From positions 496,001 to 560,000 of the forward strand of contig NZ_CP047393.1 in the NCBI RefSeq assembly GCF_009858175.1: 64,000 nt of DNA, written 5' to 3'. This DNA comes from Pontibacillus sp. HMF3514. Its GTDB lineage: Bacteria > Bacillota > Bacilli > Bacillales > BH030062. A model generated the notes under the pieces. It worked only from the letters and a program-made list of their open reading frames with translations, made no database searches and was not told the DNA's origin. Of this stretch, positions 52,982-59,190 are shown in pieces. Each line of letters starts with the position of its first letter. Position 1 is the stretch's first letter. The translations under genes and the position numbers were made by a program.

Positions 52982-53112
52982 ATGAAGATTTTAAAAGTTT
53001 CAACTTTTTACTATACAAAAAATACTAAAGCCACCCTCAATCTTTTTATGATAAGATATACAAATGGAAAATCACGAATTAACGAAATCATATAAAAGTT
53101 AGAGGGGAATTT

Positions 53113-53736
53113 ATGAAAAAGTTTACAATACGTTCATTATTTTTTATATTCGGTTTATTAATTCTATCGTTTGGTATAAGCCTTACCATTAAAGCTGATT
53201 TAGGTGCGGGTGCCTGGGATGCATTAAATGTTGGTTTAGAAGATGAAATCGGACTGACTGTTGGAACATGGGTCATTATAGTGGGGATGGTTTTAATCGT
53301 TTCTAATGCTCTGTTAGCCAAAGAACGTCCTGATTTTTTAGCATTAATCACCGTAACGATCTTAGGGCCTATGATAGACTTTTGGTTAGAGTTTTTCATG
53401 GCGGATTGGGCATTTACTAGTTTTCCTGTTCAGTTAGTTGTTCTTTTAATTGGAGTTGTATTTGTATCGCTCGGAATTGCCACTTATATTCAGCCTAAGC
53501 TCCCATTAATTCCGATTGACAACTTTATGGTTTCTGTACAAAAGCGCTTCAACTTACAAATAACAAAAGCTAAGACGTTGACTGAAGCTTTTGCTTTATT
53601 AATGGCGTTTCTTTTTGGAGGTCCAATTGGGATTGGAACAGTCGTGATTCTATTTATGATTGGTCCAACTATTCAATTTTTCGATCCGAAAGCGAAGCAT
53701 GTGCTTGGTCGACTCTTAGGTGAAGAAATACGTTAA
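53113..53736 (+). CDS. YczE/YitT-type membrane protein
   Basis: 207 residues with five membrane helices. The first loop KADLGAGAWDALNVGLEDEI and later IGTYIQPKLPLIPIDNF-like and GGPIGIGTVV segments match the YczE/YyaS/YitT group. YczE in B. subtilis affects antibiotic production at the membrane; the general role is unknown. AGAGGGG precedes the ATG. Monocistronic. Confidence 0.85.
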   Translation: MKKFTIRSLFFIFGLLILSFGISLTIKADLGAGAWDALNVGLEDEIGLTVGTWVIIVGMVLIVSNALLAKERPDFLALITVTILGPMIDFWLEFFMADWAFTSFPVQLVVLLIGVVFVSLGIATYIQPKLPLIPIDNFMVSVQKRFNLQITKAKTLTEAFALLMAFLFGGPIGIGTVVILFMIGPTIQFFDPKAKHVLGRLLGEEIR

Positions 53737-53749
53737 AAATAGAAAGAAG

Positions 53750-53787
53750 GCATGAGATTGGATGTTGTCTAGATCTCATGCTTTTTT
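53750..53787 (+). terminator. Terminator after yczE-like gene
   Basis: Stem GCATGAGAT/ATCTCATGC with a longer loop, T6. Confidence 0.85.
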
Positions 53788-53850
53788 AATACATAATTTT
53801 TCCTTCTATTGAAAAACATAAAAGAAAACGTTAGAAGGGATGGAGTTCAC

Positions 53851-54654
53851 ATGAACGTATTGATGAAGCGGGGAGCTATTACTTTTATTCTTTGTCTATC
53901 GCTTTTCCAAACCGAAATGATTCATGCAGAGAGTGAAGAGACTAAGCGAGAAGAGGTGCGCAACTTTTTAAGTTCCGTCTTAGATATCTCGAAGGAAAAC
54001 ACCTATCCAAACACACCATCTATGAAGGAACAGGTTAAACCGAATGAACTGACCAAAGAACTTTTAGAAGATGCAAAAGTACAAATCAATAATCCGCAAC
54101 TTATCAAAATGTTGAACGAAACAGATTTACAGCCATCTCCTCTTGCAATAGGGTATCGAGGCATGATCTATATGGGGGAATGGCCATTGAATTATGAAAC
54201 AAAAGAGCAAAGTATCAATTGGCAGTATCAAAAGATCAATACGAACCAAAAAGATAATCAGGATGGTTATGAATCTAAAAACATTCACTATAGTCAAGAA
54301 AAAGAGCGAGCAGTAAGAGGTGCCTTAACAGAGAAGGTAGATTATCCAAATCAAATTAAAGAAATGATGTTATTCGAAGCACAGAAACGAGCAGAACTAC
54401 CTTTAGCTTTTGACACTGTTATTGGAGAAGGAACAGATATGAACCTCTCTTATGGGGTTCCCAGTAAAAAGGTAGGGATATTAGAAGCCTATGCCCCAGC
54501 AGTGCATGAACAGGGAAAGGTTACATTTGGGGAAGTTTATCTTAAGCTGAAGGGGTCTAAAACGAAGATCGTTATTCAAAATGTGGAAACGAAAGATGTA
54601 GGAGCATGGATTCCCGTACAGGACCGACTTTCGATTACATTCCGGGCACAATAA
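53851..54654 (+). CDS. yfkD: YfkD-like exported protein
   Basis: 267 residues. Signal peptide MNVLMKRGAITFILCLSLFQ ending near IHAES. The body has YfkD hallmarks: VLDISKENTYPNTP, GYRGMIYMGEWPLNYET, AFDTVIGEGTD, EAYAPAVHEQGKVTFGEVYL and GAWIPVQDRLS. YfkD is a conserved exported protein of Bacilli, linked to general stress; function unknown. AAGGGATGGAG precedes the ATG at 53851. It is convergent with yfkC just as in B. subtilis. Confidence 0.88.
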   Translation: MNVLMKRGAITFILCLSLFQTEMIHAESEETKREEVRNFLSSVLDISKENTYPNTPSMKEQVKPNELTKELLEDAKVQINNPQLIKMLNETDLQPSPLAIGYRGMIYMGEWPLNYETKEQSINWQYQKINTNQKDNQDGYESKNIHYSQEKERAVRGALTEKVDYPNQIKEMMLFEAQKRAELPLAFDTVIGEGTDMNLSYGVPSKKVGILEAYAPAVHEQGKVTFGEVYLKLKGSKTKIVIQNVETKDVGAWIPVQDRLSITFRAQ

Positions 54655-54659
54655 AGAAA

Positions 54660-54692
54660 AATCCACTTACTCCTCTTGGGGAGTAGCGGATT
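54660..54692 (-). terminator. Terminator of yfkC
   Basis: Interrupted stem AATCC/GGATT plus ACTCC/GGAGT; on the minus strand it is followed by TTTTTCTTT. Confidence 0.65.
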
Positions 54693-55548
54693 GTGATTGT
54701 GGTAGTTCAATATGCTGCAAAGACATTTGAATATTATGATCAAACATCTTTTCGGCTATGATTCTGCGTGTTTCTTTTGAAGCTGTCCAATAAACCAGAT
54801 CCTCTGTTAATCCAAGCACTGTGTACTCATAACCACGGTGGTCACTATTAAGGGATGTCATGCCATAAAGTTGAAATGGCTGGATTGGCTGATCGGCAGG
54901 GTCTGTTTTTAAGTAATGGGCAAGTTCATCATTTAACTGCTCGCATGTTTCTTCTAAGAGTTTATAGATTTTTTTAGGATCTTCTTGAAAGCTGACTGTA
55001 ACCTTTTCAATAACACGCATATGGTCAATGTTATAGTTTTCAATGGAATTCACTTGTCCATTGCTAATAGTAAGTAGCTTACCACTCCATTCACGAAGCT
55101 TTAAAAAACGGAGTCCAATATCTTCGACCGTTCCAAAAAACTTATCATTAATGGCAATGAAGTCACCTTTATGTAACTGCTTTTCGTATAAAAAGAAAAT
55201 GCCTGCTAGCAAATCCTTAATGATACTTTGTGCACCAAAACCCAAGATGATTCCCAAAACACCTGCACCAGCTAAAACAGATCCAACTTCTAAACCGAGG
55301 AGGGTCAGTGCGAAGATAATTAATCCGATTGTAGCGGTATAATTAATCGTGGAACTGATCATCGACTCAAGCGTTTTCTCTTTTCGTTCTTCGATAAATG
55401 AAGTCTTACTGAAGAAGGAACGAACCGAGCGCTTGATAATAAAGATAGCAAGATACGTTAGAATGACTACACCAAAGAATTGGACAAAACCGTTACTCAA
55501 AAAATCGGTTATTGTATCATCCCAAGCAGCCTCATCTAAATTGAACAT
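54667..55548 (-). CDS. yfkC: Small-conductance mechanosensitive channel (MscS family, YfkC)
   Basis: 293 residues. Three membrane helices then the MscS pore helix and beta domain: LGFGAQSIIKDLLAGIFFLYE is the conserved TM3 pore segment (A/G-rich), followed by FGTVEDIGLR and the beta domain ISNGQVNSIENYN. It opens on hypo-osmotic shock to release solutes. TTAGGAGG sits before adjacent ATGs at 55551 and 55548. Convergent with yfkD, matching B. subtilis order. Confidence 0.92.
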   Translation of the reverse strand: MFNLDEAAWDDTITDFLSNGFVQFFGVVILTYLAIFIIKRSVRSFFSKTSFIEERKEKTLESMISSTINYTATIGLIIFALTLLGLEVGSVLAGAGVLGIILGFGAQSIIKDLLAGIFFLYEKQLHKGDFIAINDKFFGTVEDIGLRFLKLREWSGKLLTISNGQVNSIENYNIDHMRVIEKVTVSFQEDPKKIYKLLEETCEQLNDELAHYLKTDPADQPIQPFQLYGMTSLNSDHRGYEYTVLGLTEDLVYWTASKETRRIIAEKMFDHNIQMSLQHIELPQSQSATPQEE

Positions 55549-55713
55549 CATTAAACCTCCTAACGCTGTCACGTGTAACTCATTATAGCATGGGCGAAAA
55601 AAATGCTCTATAAACGTGACTAGGTGGGTTAGACAAATGAAGGGATTTTTACTACGATATAGAAGGCAGAGTTACTCACAAACGAATTTTATTAATAGAT
55701 AAAGGAGTCTATC

Positions 55714-55863
55714 ATGAATAACGAAACAAAAATTGAAGAGTTAAAATTACGTCTTTCTACATTCATGAGCCGTATCGACGAAATGGATCCAGAGACGACC
55801 TCCGTTGAAGATGTTGATAAGCTTATTTCTATGTTAGAAGAACTTGAAGAACAGTGTAAATAA
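55714..55863 (+). CDS. SE1561-like small protein
   Basis: 49 residues, acidic coiled helix: KLRLSTFMSRIDEMDPETTS then EDVDKLISMLEELEEQCK. The spacing of IDxxDPxxTxxEDVDxLIxML fits the small SE1561 family of Bacilli and Staphylococci. Function unknown. AAAGGAG lies 9 bases before the ATG and a strong terminator follows. Confidence 0.8.
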   Translation: MNNETKIEELKLRLSTFMSRIDEMDPETTSVEDVDKLISMLEELEEQCK

Positions 55864-55869
55864 GTGTTG

Positions 55870-55904
55870 ATAAGCCAGTTCGATTTCGAACTGGCTTATT
55901 TTTA
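55870..55904 (+). terminator. Terminator after SE1561-like gene
   Basis: 14-bp stem ATAAGCCAGTTCGA and complement with a minimal loop, then ATTTTTA. Confidence 0.92.
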
Positions 55905-56267
55905 TACCTTCTTACTTCAACTATTATGAAGAAACAAGTATAATGCTAAGTGTAAACGCTTAAATAAATATAGCTTTAAAATCTTATTAAATTCATTTAA
56001 ACTCTCATAAGTATAAAGGCCTACTTATACTGATGTAAAGTTAGTTCTTTTTTGGTATAAATGATATATTTTGAGCAATTTATAATATTTTGGATAGCGA
56101 AATATCCTATTTTATATTAATATAAATACTAAGATAGGATTTCAGAGGCATTGACGTTTTCGCAACTATGAGTAATTACCCGTATAGGTAGTTTATTGTA
56201 AATGGGCTTAACGTCTTAAATAAAGCTGCTTGAAAACTAATCTTATACATATAAGGGGACCAAAACT
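55905..56267. other. AT-rich leader region of the arbitrium-like cassette
   Basis: No gene is supported. It holds a TATAAT (55939) followed by a partial cre-like TGTAAACGCTTAAA (55951-55964), a second TATAAT (56081), the 37-bp dyad at 56105, and a TTGACG (56152) with only a weak -10 (TAATTA). The base composition is visibly more AT-rich than the flanking yfk-type genes. Confidence 0.6.
56105..56141. promoter_or_regulatory. 37-bp dyad: candidate operator of the AimR-like receptor
   Basis: Arms ATCCTATTTTA (56105-56115) and TAAGATAGGAT (56131-56141) are inverted repeats with one mismatch, separated by 15 bases. A perfect 16-bp palindrome TTTATATTAATATAAA is nested at 56112-56127. The outer edges are 37 bp apart. 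From memory, the phi3T AimR operator is two 6-bp inverted repeats 25 bp apart, also 37 bp overall. It lies 10 bases before a TTGACG -35-like element, a typical activator position. Confidence 0.5.
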
Positions 56268-57353
56268 ATGCGAAATGAAGAAAACAGCACACAGGTTTTT
56301 TCTTCTGAGCAACTGAAAACGGTTCAAGACATGATAGGGGAAAACGAACCCTCTCTGTTTTCAGTACTACAGGAATTATCGAAGAAATATGATGAAAAAA
56401 CGACGATCTTCCTTACAAAGGAATTTTGCTTAAATTGCCAGACTTACGAGAATCAGCGCGTGGGTATGGAGTTTTTGTATATGAATGGGTTTAGGGAAGA
56501 ATTAAAAACTCTTGTAAATATAAATAAGGACTCAAGTAATCAGAATAATGTGGCTTGGGGAGAAGTTTACGACTTCATTCTTCATAGGAAAATAATGGCG
56601 CAATATAGAGGTGAAGTATTATCTTTTGTTGATAATTACGAAACCGATGATGAGATTTTACGATGTTTACTTATTTTTATAAAGATATATGGACATATAG
56701 ATTTGTGTGAGTTCGATGTAATAGAAAATTATAGGGAAGAGTTAACGTCATTACTTCTAAATATTGATGACACCCTTCTTAGAATTTATTTTCAATTGAG
56801 AGAGAATGAACTTTTATTCCTCTTTCACTGGATGAGGAATGAAGTAGATATAGCTAGAAATTATGCTCACAATATTATTGATAATATATTTAATCAAGAG
56901 AAAAAATGCTTTATGCATATTCACTTGAGTGAAACTTATATCTTTGAAGATTTTGATCTAGCATTAGAACATGTGAACTGCGCTAGAGAAATTGCTTTAG
57001 ATTATGATTTAGATTATTACGTAAAAGCTATTGATAATAATGTGATTCCTTTTATATCAGCAATTAATGGAAAGTACCAAGGGATTTCTACAAATGATAT
57101 AGCTGAACAAGCTCATTTAGCTATTGCTGCAGGTGATAATGAAAAAGCTATAAAGCTACTTAAAGATATAGAAAAACGAACTCCTTTTCAAGATTATTAT
57201 TATGGGTTAGCAGCTAATGACATAAGTTTACTATTAAGCTCTTATAAAAGATTTTTAAATGAGCGAAATGATCAGTTTTTTGCAAGGTTACCTTATTTAG
57301 AATTAAAAAAAAGGGGGTGGAATGAAAATGAAAAAAATTACCATGCTAATTAG
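56268..57353 (+). CDS. aimR: AimR-family (arbitrium-like) peptide receptor
   Basis: 361 residues, all helical and TPR-like. Around residues 50-105 it has the pattern LTKEFCLNCQTYENQR, GMEFLYMNGF, then WGEVYDFILHRK. This parallels the phage phi3T AimR region (KDYCLN ... YGKVYKIHRE) as I recall it. Later repeats include ARNYAHNIIDNIF, DLALEHVNCAREIALDYDLD and DNEKAIKLLKDIE. CLN lies at 54-56, about 17 residues earlier than in phi3T AimR, so the N-terminal DNA-binding helices are short or diverged and no convincing HTH was seen. AAGGGGACC precedes the ATG; an in-frame TAA lies just upstream. It overlaps a pro-peptide gene. Alternatives: Rap-like or PlcR-like TPR receptor. Confidence 0.75.
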   Translation: MRNEENSTQVFSSEQLKTVQDMIGENEPSLFSVLQELSKKYDEKTTIFLTKEFCLNCQTYENQRVGMEFLYMNGFREELKTLVNINKDSSNQNNVAWGEVYDFILHRKIMAQYRGEVLSFVDNYETDDEILRCLLIFIKIYGHIDLCEFDVIENYREELTSLLLNIDDTLLRIYFQLRENELLFLFHWMRNEVDIARNYAHNIIDNIFNQEKKCFMHIHLSETYIFEDFDLALEHVNCAREIALDYDLDYYVKAIDNNVIPFISAINGKYQGISTNDIAEQAHLAIAAGDNEKAIKLLKDIEKRTPFQDYYYGLAANDISLLLSSYKRFLNERNDQFFARLPYLELKKRGWNENEKNYHAN

Positions 57354-57483
57354 TGCAGTATTATTAACTATTACAATTTCTTTTACTTCTGATCTTACTG
57401 AAAATATTGCAGAAGTAACGGCTAAGAGCAGTGATGATTCTATACAAATGATGTATGACCCTACTGTTGGTGGGGTTGGTTAA
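57328..57483 (+). CDS. aimP: AimP-like exported signalling pro-peptide
   Basis: 51 residues. Basic start MKK, hydrophobic core ITMLISAVLLTITISF, then a polar spacer (SDLTENIAEVTAKSSDDSIQ) and the C-terminus MMYDPTVGGVG. This is the layout of Phr/AimP precursors, which are secreted and trimmed to a short C-terminal peptide that re-enters through Opp. The mature signal could be the last six residues TVGGVG or a trimmed DPTVGG; this is not decidable here. It overlaps the receptor gene by 26 bases. AAGGGGGTGG lies 8 bases before the ATG at 57328; ATG 57322 is closer and less likely. Confidence 0.75.
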   Translation: MKKITMLISAVLLTITISFTSDLTENIAEVTAKSSDDSIQMMYDPTVGGVG

Positions 57484-57489
57484 CATTAG

Positions 57490-57521
57490 AAAGGGGCAGG
57501 TTAATCTGTCCTTTTTTATTT
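57490..57521 (+). terminator. Terminator between the pro-peptide and the small membrane gene
   Basis: Stem AAAGGGGCAG/CTGTCCTTTT with G-U pairs and T6. In phage arbitrium loci a terminator also separates aimP from aimX. Confidence 0.8.
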
Positions 57522-57542
57522 TTCAAGATAGGAAGTGATTCT

Positions 57543-57713
57543 TTGAACGAATGGATCTACATATTATCACCAGTCATTGGTTTCTGGTTTATGTTTATGC
57601 TCATGAGGTTTTACTATAAAGTTCGAGCAAAGACACCTCTTACCTTTACAGAGAAAGTTGCTCTGGCAGCATCATCAATATCACTAGCTTTTATCATTAT
57701 TTGGGTAAGTTAA
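57543..57713 (+). CDS. Small two-helix membrane protein downstream of the pro-peptide (aimX position)
   Basis: 56 residues: helix 1 WIYILSPVIGFWFMFMLM, a basic loop RFYYKVRAKTP, helix 2 VALAASSISLAFIIIWV. TTG start with AGGAAGTG 6 bases upstream. It lies behind the terminator that closes aimR-aimP, the position of aimX in phage arbitrium, and may be its regulated output. The 9-base word AAGATAGGA at its ribosome binding site repeats the right arm of the upstream dyad. Holin-like in size and topology, but no function can be assigned. Confidence 0.65.
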   Translation: MNEWIYILSPVIGFWFMFMLMRFYYKVRAKTPLTFTEKVALAASSISLAFIIIWVS

Positions 57714-57731
57714 CCAATGACGGCAGTTTTT

Positions 57732-57771
57732 AACCTCCCACTTTTTTAAAGATTGTGGGTTGATTTTTTTG
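57732..57771 (+). terminator. Probable terminator of the arbitrium-like cassette
   Basis: CCCAC/GTGGG stem with A-T extensions and a T7 tract. Confidence 0.55.
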
Positions 57772-57855: not shown

Positions 57856-59190
57856 ATGCTTGCATGGGCTGTTGTCGTATCCGTATTGGTTATGACAATT
57901 TTAAGCTTGCTTCGTGTTAATGTGATTTTTGCCATTATTGCAGCTGCATTAACAGGAGGTTTGATGGCTGACTTATCCATTACAGAGTCAGTTAAAGCGT
58001 TAGTAGAAGGAATGGGAGGTCAAGCAAAAACAGCATTAAGTTATATTTTGCTTGGAGCATTTGCCGTAACAATTTCCTATTCCGGAATCACAAAGATATT
58101 AGTTCGTAACTTAATTTCTGTATTGAGAGGGAAGCGTGCTACGCTGCTTCTTGTTATTGCTGGAGTCGCATCTTTATCTCAAAACGTAGTTCCGGTGCAT
58201 ATTGCATTTATTCCTATTTTAATTCCACCATTATTAAAACTATTTGATGAGATGAAGATTGACCGACGTGGTGTTGCGTCAGCATTAACATTTGGCTTAA
58301 AAGCTCCATATGTTATGATTCCAGCTGGTTTTGGATTAATCTTCCACCAGACTATTCAAGATGCTATGAAACAAAATGGTGCTGATGTTTCACTTGGTGG
58401 AATAGCACAATCTTTACTACTTCCTGGATCAGGAATGATTCTTGGTCTACTCATTGCGGTATTCTTTACTTATCGTAAATCCCGTGAGCGTACGGTTGAC
58501 CAAGCAGAAGAGGCTCAAGAAGAGGCGGAAGAAGATCTTAGTGGAGAGAAATTTGGTCTTCGCCACGTATTAACTCTAGTAGCTATTGTTTTTGCACTCA
58601 TTGCACAATTATATTATGGAAGCATGATTTTAGGAGCACTAACAGGACTTGTATTTATGTATCTATTCCAAGGCTTAACAAGAATGATGAATGTTGTTCC
58701 GCTTAATAAAGGAAACTCAATCATGTCACAAGGTATTGGTATGATGGGAACCATTGCTTTTGTTATGCTTGTAGCTTCTGGTTATGCAAATGTTCTTCAA
58801 TCGACTGGTTCCGTTGAAGCGTTAGTCAATCAAACATCCGGAGCATTAGGTGATAACCAAATTATTATCTCCTTCGTCCTATTAGTAGTTGGTTTAGTTA
58901 TTACAATGGGGATCGGATCTTCGTTTGCTACGGTTCCTATCCTTGCAGCTCTATATGTGCCAATTTGTACGGCAGTAGGCTTTTCACCATTAGCAACTGC
59001 GGCATTAATTGGTACAGCGGGTGCACTAGGTGATGCTGGTTCACCAGCTTCTGATAGTACACTTGGTCCTACATCAGGATTAAATGCAGACGGAAAACAC
59101 AATCACATCTGGGATACTTGTGTACCTACGTTTCTACACTACAACATCCCATTATTCTTATTCGGCTGGTTAGCAGCTGTTATCCTGTAA
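57856..59190 (+). CDS. Na+/H+ antiporter family membrane protein (YuiF-like)
   Basis: 444 residues with about 11-12 membrane helices. Two repeated halves are seen; key parts are VVPVHIAFIPILIPPLL, FGLKAPYVMIPAGFGLIFH, SSFATVPILAALYVPIC and ALGDAGSPASDSTLGPTSGLN. It belongs to the Na_H_antiport_2/YuiF group, in which both Na+/H+ exchange and amino-acid transport have been proposed. AGAGGAGG is 7 bases before the ATG at 57856. A charged loop rich in E (about 220-235) separates the halves. Confidence 0.87.
   Translation: MLAWAVVVSVLVMTILSLLRVNVIFAIIAAALTGGLMADLSITESVKALVEGMGGQAKTALSYILLGAFAVTISYSGITKILVRNLISVLRGKRATLLLVIAGVASLSQNVVPVHIAFIPILIPPLLKLFDEMKIDRRGVASALTFGLKAPYVMIPAGFGLIFHQTIQDAMKQNGADVSLGGIAQSLLLPGSGMILGLLIAVFFTYRKSRERTVDQAEEAQEEAEEDLSGEKFGLRHVLTLVAIVFALIAQLYYGSMILGALTGLVFMYLFQGLTRMMNVVPLNKGNSIMSQGIGMMGTIAFVMLVASGYANVLQSTGSVEALVNQTSGALGDNQIIISFVLLVVGLVITMGIGSSFATVPILAALYVPICTAVGFSPLATAALIGTAGALGDAGSPASDSTLGPTSGLNADGKHNHIWDTCVPTFLHYNIPLFLFGWLAAVIL

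Follow-up and report, generated by a model that had tools for sequence, protein, structure and literature searches.

What does a receptor of the phage arbitrium family, with a putative signal-peptide gene beside it, do in an ordinary stretch of bacterial chromosome? The question is raised by a locus in the window (the whole analysed stretch of 64,000 nucleotides from Pontibacillus sp. HMF3514, a salt-loving, spore-forming bacterium), which a first-pass annotation had described as an AimR-AimP cassette in a non-phage neighbourhood. We consider it likely that the two genes are a bacterial (host) peptide quorum-sensing pair, belonging to an old clade of chromosomal, bacterial AimR receptors that have no helix-turn-helix (HTH) domain. 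The features of the locus are listed in Table 1.

Table 1. Features of the receptor-propeptide locus, in window positions
Feature	Position	Strand	Basis or remark
Receptor ORF, HTH-less AimR family, nine TPRs, 361 aa	56268..57353	+	ORF, profile, fold
Constant N-terminal part of receptor, ~residues 1-45	56268..56402	+	Short helix 13-22, then TPR1 helix; no HTH; protein 100% identical to P. marinus
Variable cassette (ligand-binding part of receptor, propeptide, terminator)	56403..57540	+	~60% DNA identity to P. marinus, flanks 81-99% (100-base bins)
Exported propeptide (export predicted), 51 aa	57328..57483	+	Alternative start 57322 gives 53 aa; phrog_2682, E 3.9e-6
Predicted mature octapeptide DPTVGGVG	57457..57480	+	Register inferred from relatives with tandem copies
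Terminator-like hairpin 3' of propeptide	57487..57518	+	Hairpin scan
5' leader	56040..56267	+	Each 30-base bin 90-100% identical to P. marinus
56-aa membrane-protein-like ORF, TTG start	57543..57713	+	Probably coding; shared by two species; not conserved as a system component
SE1561 family gene, left flank of slot C	55714..55863	+	NCBIfam/Pfam annotation, synteny
Na+/H+ antiporter (NhaC-like), right flank of slot C	57856..59190	+	Annotation, synteny

The genes themselves are as first described: a 361-residue receptor frame with the CLN and WGEVY signatures, a 51-residue propeptide frame that overlaps it and ends in DPTVGGVG, and a terminator-like hairpin behind the propeptide (four terminator-like sites were found in the 3-kb region, against a shuffle mean of 1.3, sd 1.2). 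Both possible propeptide starts lie before the receptor end at 57353, and 57328 appears preferable to 57322 for its better ribosome-binding-site spacing. Annotation of six proteins of the window, together with synteny comparison, gave an MscS-type channel, the SE1561 family gene and the Na+/H+ antiporter as flanking genes, which agrees with the ordinary chromosomal neighbours that had been reported.

According to profile searches, the receptor belongs to the AimR family, as had been claimed: it matches Pfam AimR PF22871 (E 3.8e-68, above the curated cut-off), NCBIfam NF038310 (lysogeny_AimR; E 4.3e-49, 167.5 bits for a cut-off of 70) and phrog_1728 (E 5.3e-48). Searched by sequence against the PDB, it retrieves three distinct AimR sequences at E 2e-7 to 4e-6; the two other matches, both at E 1.2, are to unrelated proteins. 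Profile and fold agree on an AimR-type TPR domain; the identity between the window receptor and phage arbitrium AimR is about 20%.

The DNA-binding HTH of phage AimR is missing from the window receptor. The NF038310 match begins at model position 36 of 365, 53 residues precede the conserved helix as compared to 69-70 in the three phage AimR fetched, and the structural model has one N-terminal helix before the TPR1 helix instead of three. (The structural modelling covered the window receptor, and the HTH state of other receptors was read from length and N-terminus.) The RapH_N three-helix bundle (PF18801) was not listed for the receptor in a search with a maximum E-value of 10, whose filters drop most matches above about 0.1. 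That a fold family does not appear in the VIA list should not be taken to mean that it is lacking. With the HTH missing, the suggestion that the locus uses the same circuit as arbitrium is not supported, and the model name of NF038310, 'lysis-lysogeny pheromone receptor', would seem misleading for the HTH-less clade.

A receptor without HTH might still regulate transcription, reaching DNA through its TPR surface, its short N-terminal helix or a partner, and so control the propeptide or the 56-aa gene with the arbitrium logic kept. The TPR domain of phage AimR also touches the backbone of the spacer DNA (PMC6458997; here and below, statements on cited papers refer to the accessible part of their text), and the leader is conserved in P. 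marinus in every bin from 56040 on (Table 1). Five Rfam matches at E<=5 were found in a search for a riboswitch or structured leader, all far below the gathering scores. We think this explanation unlikely, since the receptor model leaves no room for the recognition helix alpha3 of phage AimR and the 56-aa gene is found at E<=1e-20 in only two of eight same-genus genomes (the others give E 0.048 or worse, or no match). The 56-aa ORF differs from that of P. marinus by 10 synonymous and 7 non-synonymous codons (one of the 7 is the start codon), is probably coding, and its product is predicted to span the membrane twice. A 56-residue membrane-protein-like frame thus does stand in the aimX position, as first noted, but its presence in two of eight genomes does not support it as a part of the system, and on that count we rejected it as a chromosomal aimX.

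The nearest named relatives of the window receptor are from Pontibacillus (53-58% identity). Its own genome (3.98 Mb, one contig) contains six AimR-family genes: besides the window copy there is a single gene at 3.54 Mb and a tandem array of four at 3.63 Mb, and all six are HTH-less by length. A search of the genus gave 3-6 AimR copies in seven of eight genomes (the eighth, G002, has none, with two sub-cut-off profile matches), and NF038310 matches at E<=1e-10 occur in 53 of 249 genomes of the order. The tree started from the receptors of at least 300 aa (135 of 143 distinct frames), of which 106 remained after an 80% identity filter. Receptors with at least 64 residues before the anchor were called HTH-type; seven rows were set by hand to HTH-less (six of them changed) from N-termini with likely upstream false starts, and six receptor names, five of them in the tree, are marked uncertain for HTH state. 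This 106-row tree, computed from alignment columns beyond the N-terminus, unites 60 HTH-less receptors in a single clade (SH-aLRT 100); it was made by a quick method with SH-aLRT support only, is unrooted, and has several long branches flagged among its HTH-type rows. Four further HTH-less rows (L129, L135, L137 and L141) are placed among the phage-type receptors, so the DNA-binding head of AimR was lost, or gained, at least twice. Three of these four are accompanied by a signal-like propeptide whose tail is of the DPNGSPRIQS kind.

Members of the HTH-less clade sit in conserved chromosomal slots, whose gene families were confirmed on single representatives (NCBIfam, Pfam). Slot A has the order spoIID-spoIIQ-[receptor, often with propeptide]-spoIIID-mbl-flhO/flhP (murA and fabZ lie farther away, in stretches long enough to include them) and is the commonest slot among the loci compared (29 of 54; spoIIID was not called in L019, L144 and L162). 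These 29 include 24 of the 25 non-Pontibacillus loci from the search for named relatives (the remaining one, L026, starts at the receptor), and the 3.54 Mb copy of the window's own genome is in slot A too. Slot B has the order speB-[1-4 receptors]-ywiB-argS, the middle gene being presumably ywiB, and is found in Pontibacillus and others. The paralogue found in the window occupies a separate slot and has separate pherotypes: slot C, MscS-SE1561-[receptor-propeptide]-NhaC, is found in all seven AimR-carrying Pontibacillus genomes and, as judged by MscS and NhaC, in the sister genus genome G008.

Some smaller features of these neighbourhoods were also seen. Six slot A loci (L012, L018, L019, L021, L024 and L030) have a NERD-domain gene (one member tested) that is encoded on the other strand and is located between mbl and either the receptor or spoIIID. 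Many slot A loci have genes for a YkfC-type NlpC/P60 protein and an OppF-type ATPase 5' of spoIID (e.g. L012 17-1935), which are possibly for murein-peptide recycling; the OppF-type match is that of one tested member of a family present in 19 of 54 loci. We rejected the OppF-type gene as evidence for peptide import by an oligopeptide permease, because its neighbour encodes the YkfC-type protein and it may serve murein recycling. In one slot B locus (L007 8262-12809), speB and argS enclose a tandem row of four HTH-less receptors for which our fixed test gave no propeptide; they are possible listeners to the genome's other peptides.

The slots bear directly on the proposal, made in the first-pass annotation, that the pair is an AT-rich inserted unit or what is left of a prophage or mobile element since lost. 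The receptor is indeed AT-rich (30.8% GC, as compared to 38.2% for the window), its closest solved relatives are phage proteins, and in one Pontibacillus genome (G002) slots A and C are empty, with the flanking genes present and adjacent and nothing matched there by receptor queries. But the first 45 codons have 37.8% GC and only the codons beyond them are low (29.9%), the same slot is occupied in seven of seven carriers and in the sister genus, and relatives occupy conserved chromosomal slots in nine named genera. The phage collection gave 19 AimR records, all from Bacillus phages, at 21-25% identity, of which the three fetched carry the HTH, and the viral_contigs scan, a single-sequence query that finds close relatives only, gave no relative. 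With the synteny and the phage, plasmid and viral scans all against it, the relic is largely refuted and we regard it as very improbable; of the earlier claim, the AT-rich composition and the chromosomal, non-phage setting stand, and the insertion is not supported. The plasmid scan gave four records, one of which (L099 4688-6131, plasmid CP045534.1 of a marine Bacillaceae) is an AimR-like receptor split over two frames.

The host-pair reading calls for a cognate signal. For each locus we asked for a signal-like ORF of 30-110 aa that starts -75 to +400 nt from the receptor end and has a C-terminus of [DN]P plus 3-9 residues, a test framed after looking at the propeptides. Such DP/NP-type propeptides were found in 8/8 slot C, 20/29 slot A, 4/10 f7, 1/3 f2 and 0/21 slot B loci, as compared to 0/164 regions after spoIID, spoIIQ, mbl, flhO/P, spoIIID, argS and speB, and at most 0.1 in shuffles; 9 of the 29 slot A receptors have no adjacent propeptide by this test. 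Homologous loci thus carry a conserved frame, so the objection that none exists does not hold, and the cognate propeptide that had been postulated is adjacent to the window receptor and conserved across slot C, with export predicted from its sequence. The propeptide itself matches phrog_2682, a family of unknown function. A TPR receptor expected in the cytoplasm and a short propeptide predicted to be exported together have the make-up of RRNPPA signalling, in which secretion and binding would follow.

Several relatives carry tandem octapeptide units, i.e. DPGLGDMD (L023, L036), DPGDPGMG (L155, L165), DPDLGWID (L027), DPGDSGVG (L153) and the DPVEPPLP type (L003), and these copies suggest a mature unit of eight residues. 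Peptide contacts can be compared with SPbeta AimR, where E300 binds the peptide amine and roles are given for other contact residues (PMC6458997, PMC9232636). E300 corresponds to E280 of the window receptor and is conserved in 59 of the 60 receptors of the clade, F276 in 59 and D360 in 51; the window receptor does not keep R228, N202 and N206, with which phage AimR contacts the carboxylate and Arg4 of its peptide. Two further observations concern the peptides. The receptor of L075 (G008) is 53% identical to that of the window over 304 columns and its propeptide likewise ends in DPTVGGVG, so that cross-genus signalling is possible from the sequences. Locus L008 (slot A of the window's own genome, 8394-9419) has two different propeptides after one receptor, the first with DPVEPPLP-type repeats and the second ending in DPDIGGMG.

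These peptides also bear on the idea that the HTH-less receptor is an eavesdropper or decoy, which either listens to the peptides of phages or rivals or pairs with phage AimR in heterodimers that block lysogeny control, as a defence. Eavesdropping has been proposed for chromosomal AimR without propeptide (PMC9765709), and the slot B copies, with 0/21 propeptides, would suit it. The window copy has its own propeptide, conserved in 8/8 loci, the predicted peptides do not have the RGA tail of phage AimP, and the six AimR-family genes found in its genome are all HTH-less by length, which makes this explanation for the window pair quite unlikely.

The host-pair reading receives further detail from the pattern of divergence. 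Compared with P. marinus in 100-base bins, DNA identity is 81-97% over 53100-56099, 95-99% over 56100-56399, 41-76% over 56400-57599, and 82-97% again from 57600 to about 60000. The same break is seen in the receptors of genome pairs, in which residues 1-45 and the rest are, respectively, 100 and 51% identical (G000/G003), 95 and 46% (G001/G005), 95 and 47% (G001/G004), 96 and 74% (G006/G007), and 93 and 64% (G005/G004). There is also a supported tree conflict: flank proteins join G001 with G004 (99/97), whereas receptor bodies join G004 with G005 (100/100). (The receptor-body tree does not reject a G000+G003 sisterhood, for which support is 41/39; the conflict concerns G001, G004 and G005.) Ligand domain and propeptide diverge cassette-wise. 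From the identity pattern and the tree conflict we infer that the two change together, by exchange or by diversification, and leave the N-terminal part in place. This pattern fits a receptor with a conserved output surface and diversifying specificity. The N-terminal segment is similar within slot C and different between slots, and is the best candidate for the contact site of a protein partner.

The pair would then work as follows. The propeptide would be exported and trimmed to about eight residues (DPTVGGVG), and the peptide would accumulate with cell density and be re-imported by an oligopeptide permease. It would bind in the TPR groove of the receptor, where the acidic residue that anchors the peptide amine is conserved, and binding would switch a protein-protein interaction as in Rap proteins, which for a receptor without HTH is the simplest reading of its output. 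The partner is probably a regulator of sporulation or of another stationary-phase decision.

The link to sporulation comes from slot A, which has sporulation genes on both sides. The core of the 0A box is TGTCGAA (PMC3485338), and we found it within 300 nt upstream of 24/29 slot A receptors (shuffle mean 0.9), i.e. most sporulation-slot members. By the same test, it is upstream of spoIIQ in 12/29, mbl in 5/29, the OppF-type gene in 2/17, flhO/P in 1/50, spoIID in 0/28 and spoIIID in 0/27 cases. Among other AimR receptors, it is upstream of 3/49 of the HTH type, 1/21 in slot B and 2/8 mixed Pontibacillus-family paralogues, and the exact core is upstream of 0/8 receptors in slot C, 0/10 in f7 and 0/3 in f2. 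As a control, the core was found upstream of abrB-type genes in 12/12 slot A genomes, of spoVT-type genes in 0/12, and of two further AbrB-like genes in 0/2 (26 of 30 loci were readable and four were dropped; the names abrB, ~91-98 aa and one per genome, and spoVT, ~177-185 aa, were assigned by length and sequence and are putative). The gene spoIIGA (exact core 0/12, a looser form 3/12) was set aside as a control in favour of the AbrB-family genes, because B. subtilis spoIIG has weak 0A boxes according to a reference title in PMC3485338. A candidate sigma-H promoter was found upstream of 2/29 slot A receptors for one spacing (expected 0.06) and 0/29 for two others. The slot A copy of the window's own genome also has no exact core upstream, so for the window pair a sporulation role is drawn from relatives in other genera.

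The window pair differs from the AimR-AimP of SPbeta-group phages, which has an HTH and an aimX, is phage-encoded and decides between lysis and lysogeny, in having neither HTH nor conserved aimX and in being chromosomal and syntenic; phage AimP is a hexapeptide ending in RGA, whereas the window peptide is a predicted octapeptide with DP and a final G. Rap-Phr systems (e.g. RapF-PhrF) share several traits with it: Rap receptors have no HTH, pair a TPR receptor with an exported cognate peptide, and occur as several chromosomal paralogues of which some have no peptide. We read the pair as an AimR-type, probably Rap-like host system of RRNPPA signalling. The two families share a niche in some genomes: among 18 Rap-rich genomes asked, 3 of the 12 bearing speB (the slot B gene) have a RapH_N gene 1.2-1.3 kb from it, in line with rapF adjoining speB in B. 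subtilis. We make no case for Rap and HTH-less AimR avoiding each other across genomes: of about 24 carriers, 2 have Rap-length matches (read by hand), roughly as expected by chance. NprR-NprX, which has a sporulation role and a PD-containing peptide, likewise joins a TPR receptor to an exported peptide. Unlike the window receptor, NprR keeps an HTH plus a Rap-type bundle (PMC9765709). The window's own genome has a separate NprR-like protein (L061) with HTH_3, a sub-cut-off RapH_N match and TPRs.

Chromosomal AimR has been met before. Felipe-Ruiz et al. 2022 found AimR matches outside prophages, list Virgibacillus with AimR, and read the chromosomal receptors, almost 90% of them without propeptide, as eavesdroppers on phages (PMC9765709); HTH loss, sporulation synteny and the Spo0A box, as seen here in the HTH-less clade, are not met in the accessible part of that paper. 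Moi et al. 2025 group AimR with AloR in clan C with a common DPG motif; the 'subfamily 21' systems, which are chromosomal and come from Alkalihalobacilli, branch inside AimR in a tree built from sequence, and Rap and subfamily 17 are described as having lost the HTH (PMC12700828). The clade may be among the 21 novel candidate subfamilies of Bernard et al. 2023 (PMC10075063). In the accessible portions of the open-licence full-text literature, no description of an HTH-less AimR clade in the sporulation slot was found. The clade turns AimR outside prophages, published as eavesdropping on phages, into a testable host system, being large, with its own peptides and conserved chromosomal slots, the commonest of which among the loci compared combines the Spo0A-box core with flanking sporulation genes. 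It is a naturally occurring example of a single receptor scaffold used by viruses for lysogeny and, plausibly, by bacteria for dormancy. A bolder proposal, which we think possible rather than probable, is that HTH-less AimR plays the part of Rap in halophilic Bacillaceae, as a quorum-sensing receptor for sporulation that is under Spo0A control and whose pherotype cassettes can be exchanged. The arbitrium switch of phages and a dormancy switch of their hosts would then have branched from a single receptor lineage. If this is true, loss or gain of a DNA-binding head turned a lysogeny sensor into a sporulation sensor, or the reverse.

An expansion different from that of the window's HTH-less clade was seen in G013, which has seven tandem HTH-bearing AimR genes (L138 3913-12454), and in G123, which has five whole HTH-bearing AimR genes and fragments in tandem (L139 3740-9712), in both cases mostly without propeptide.
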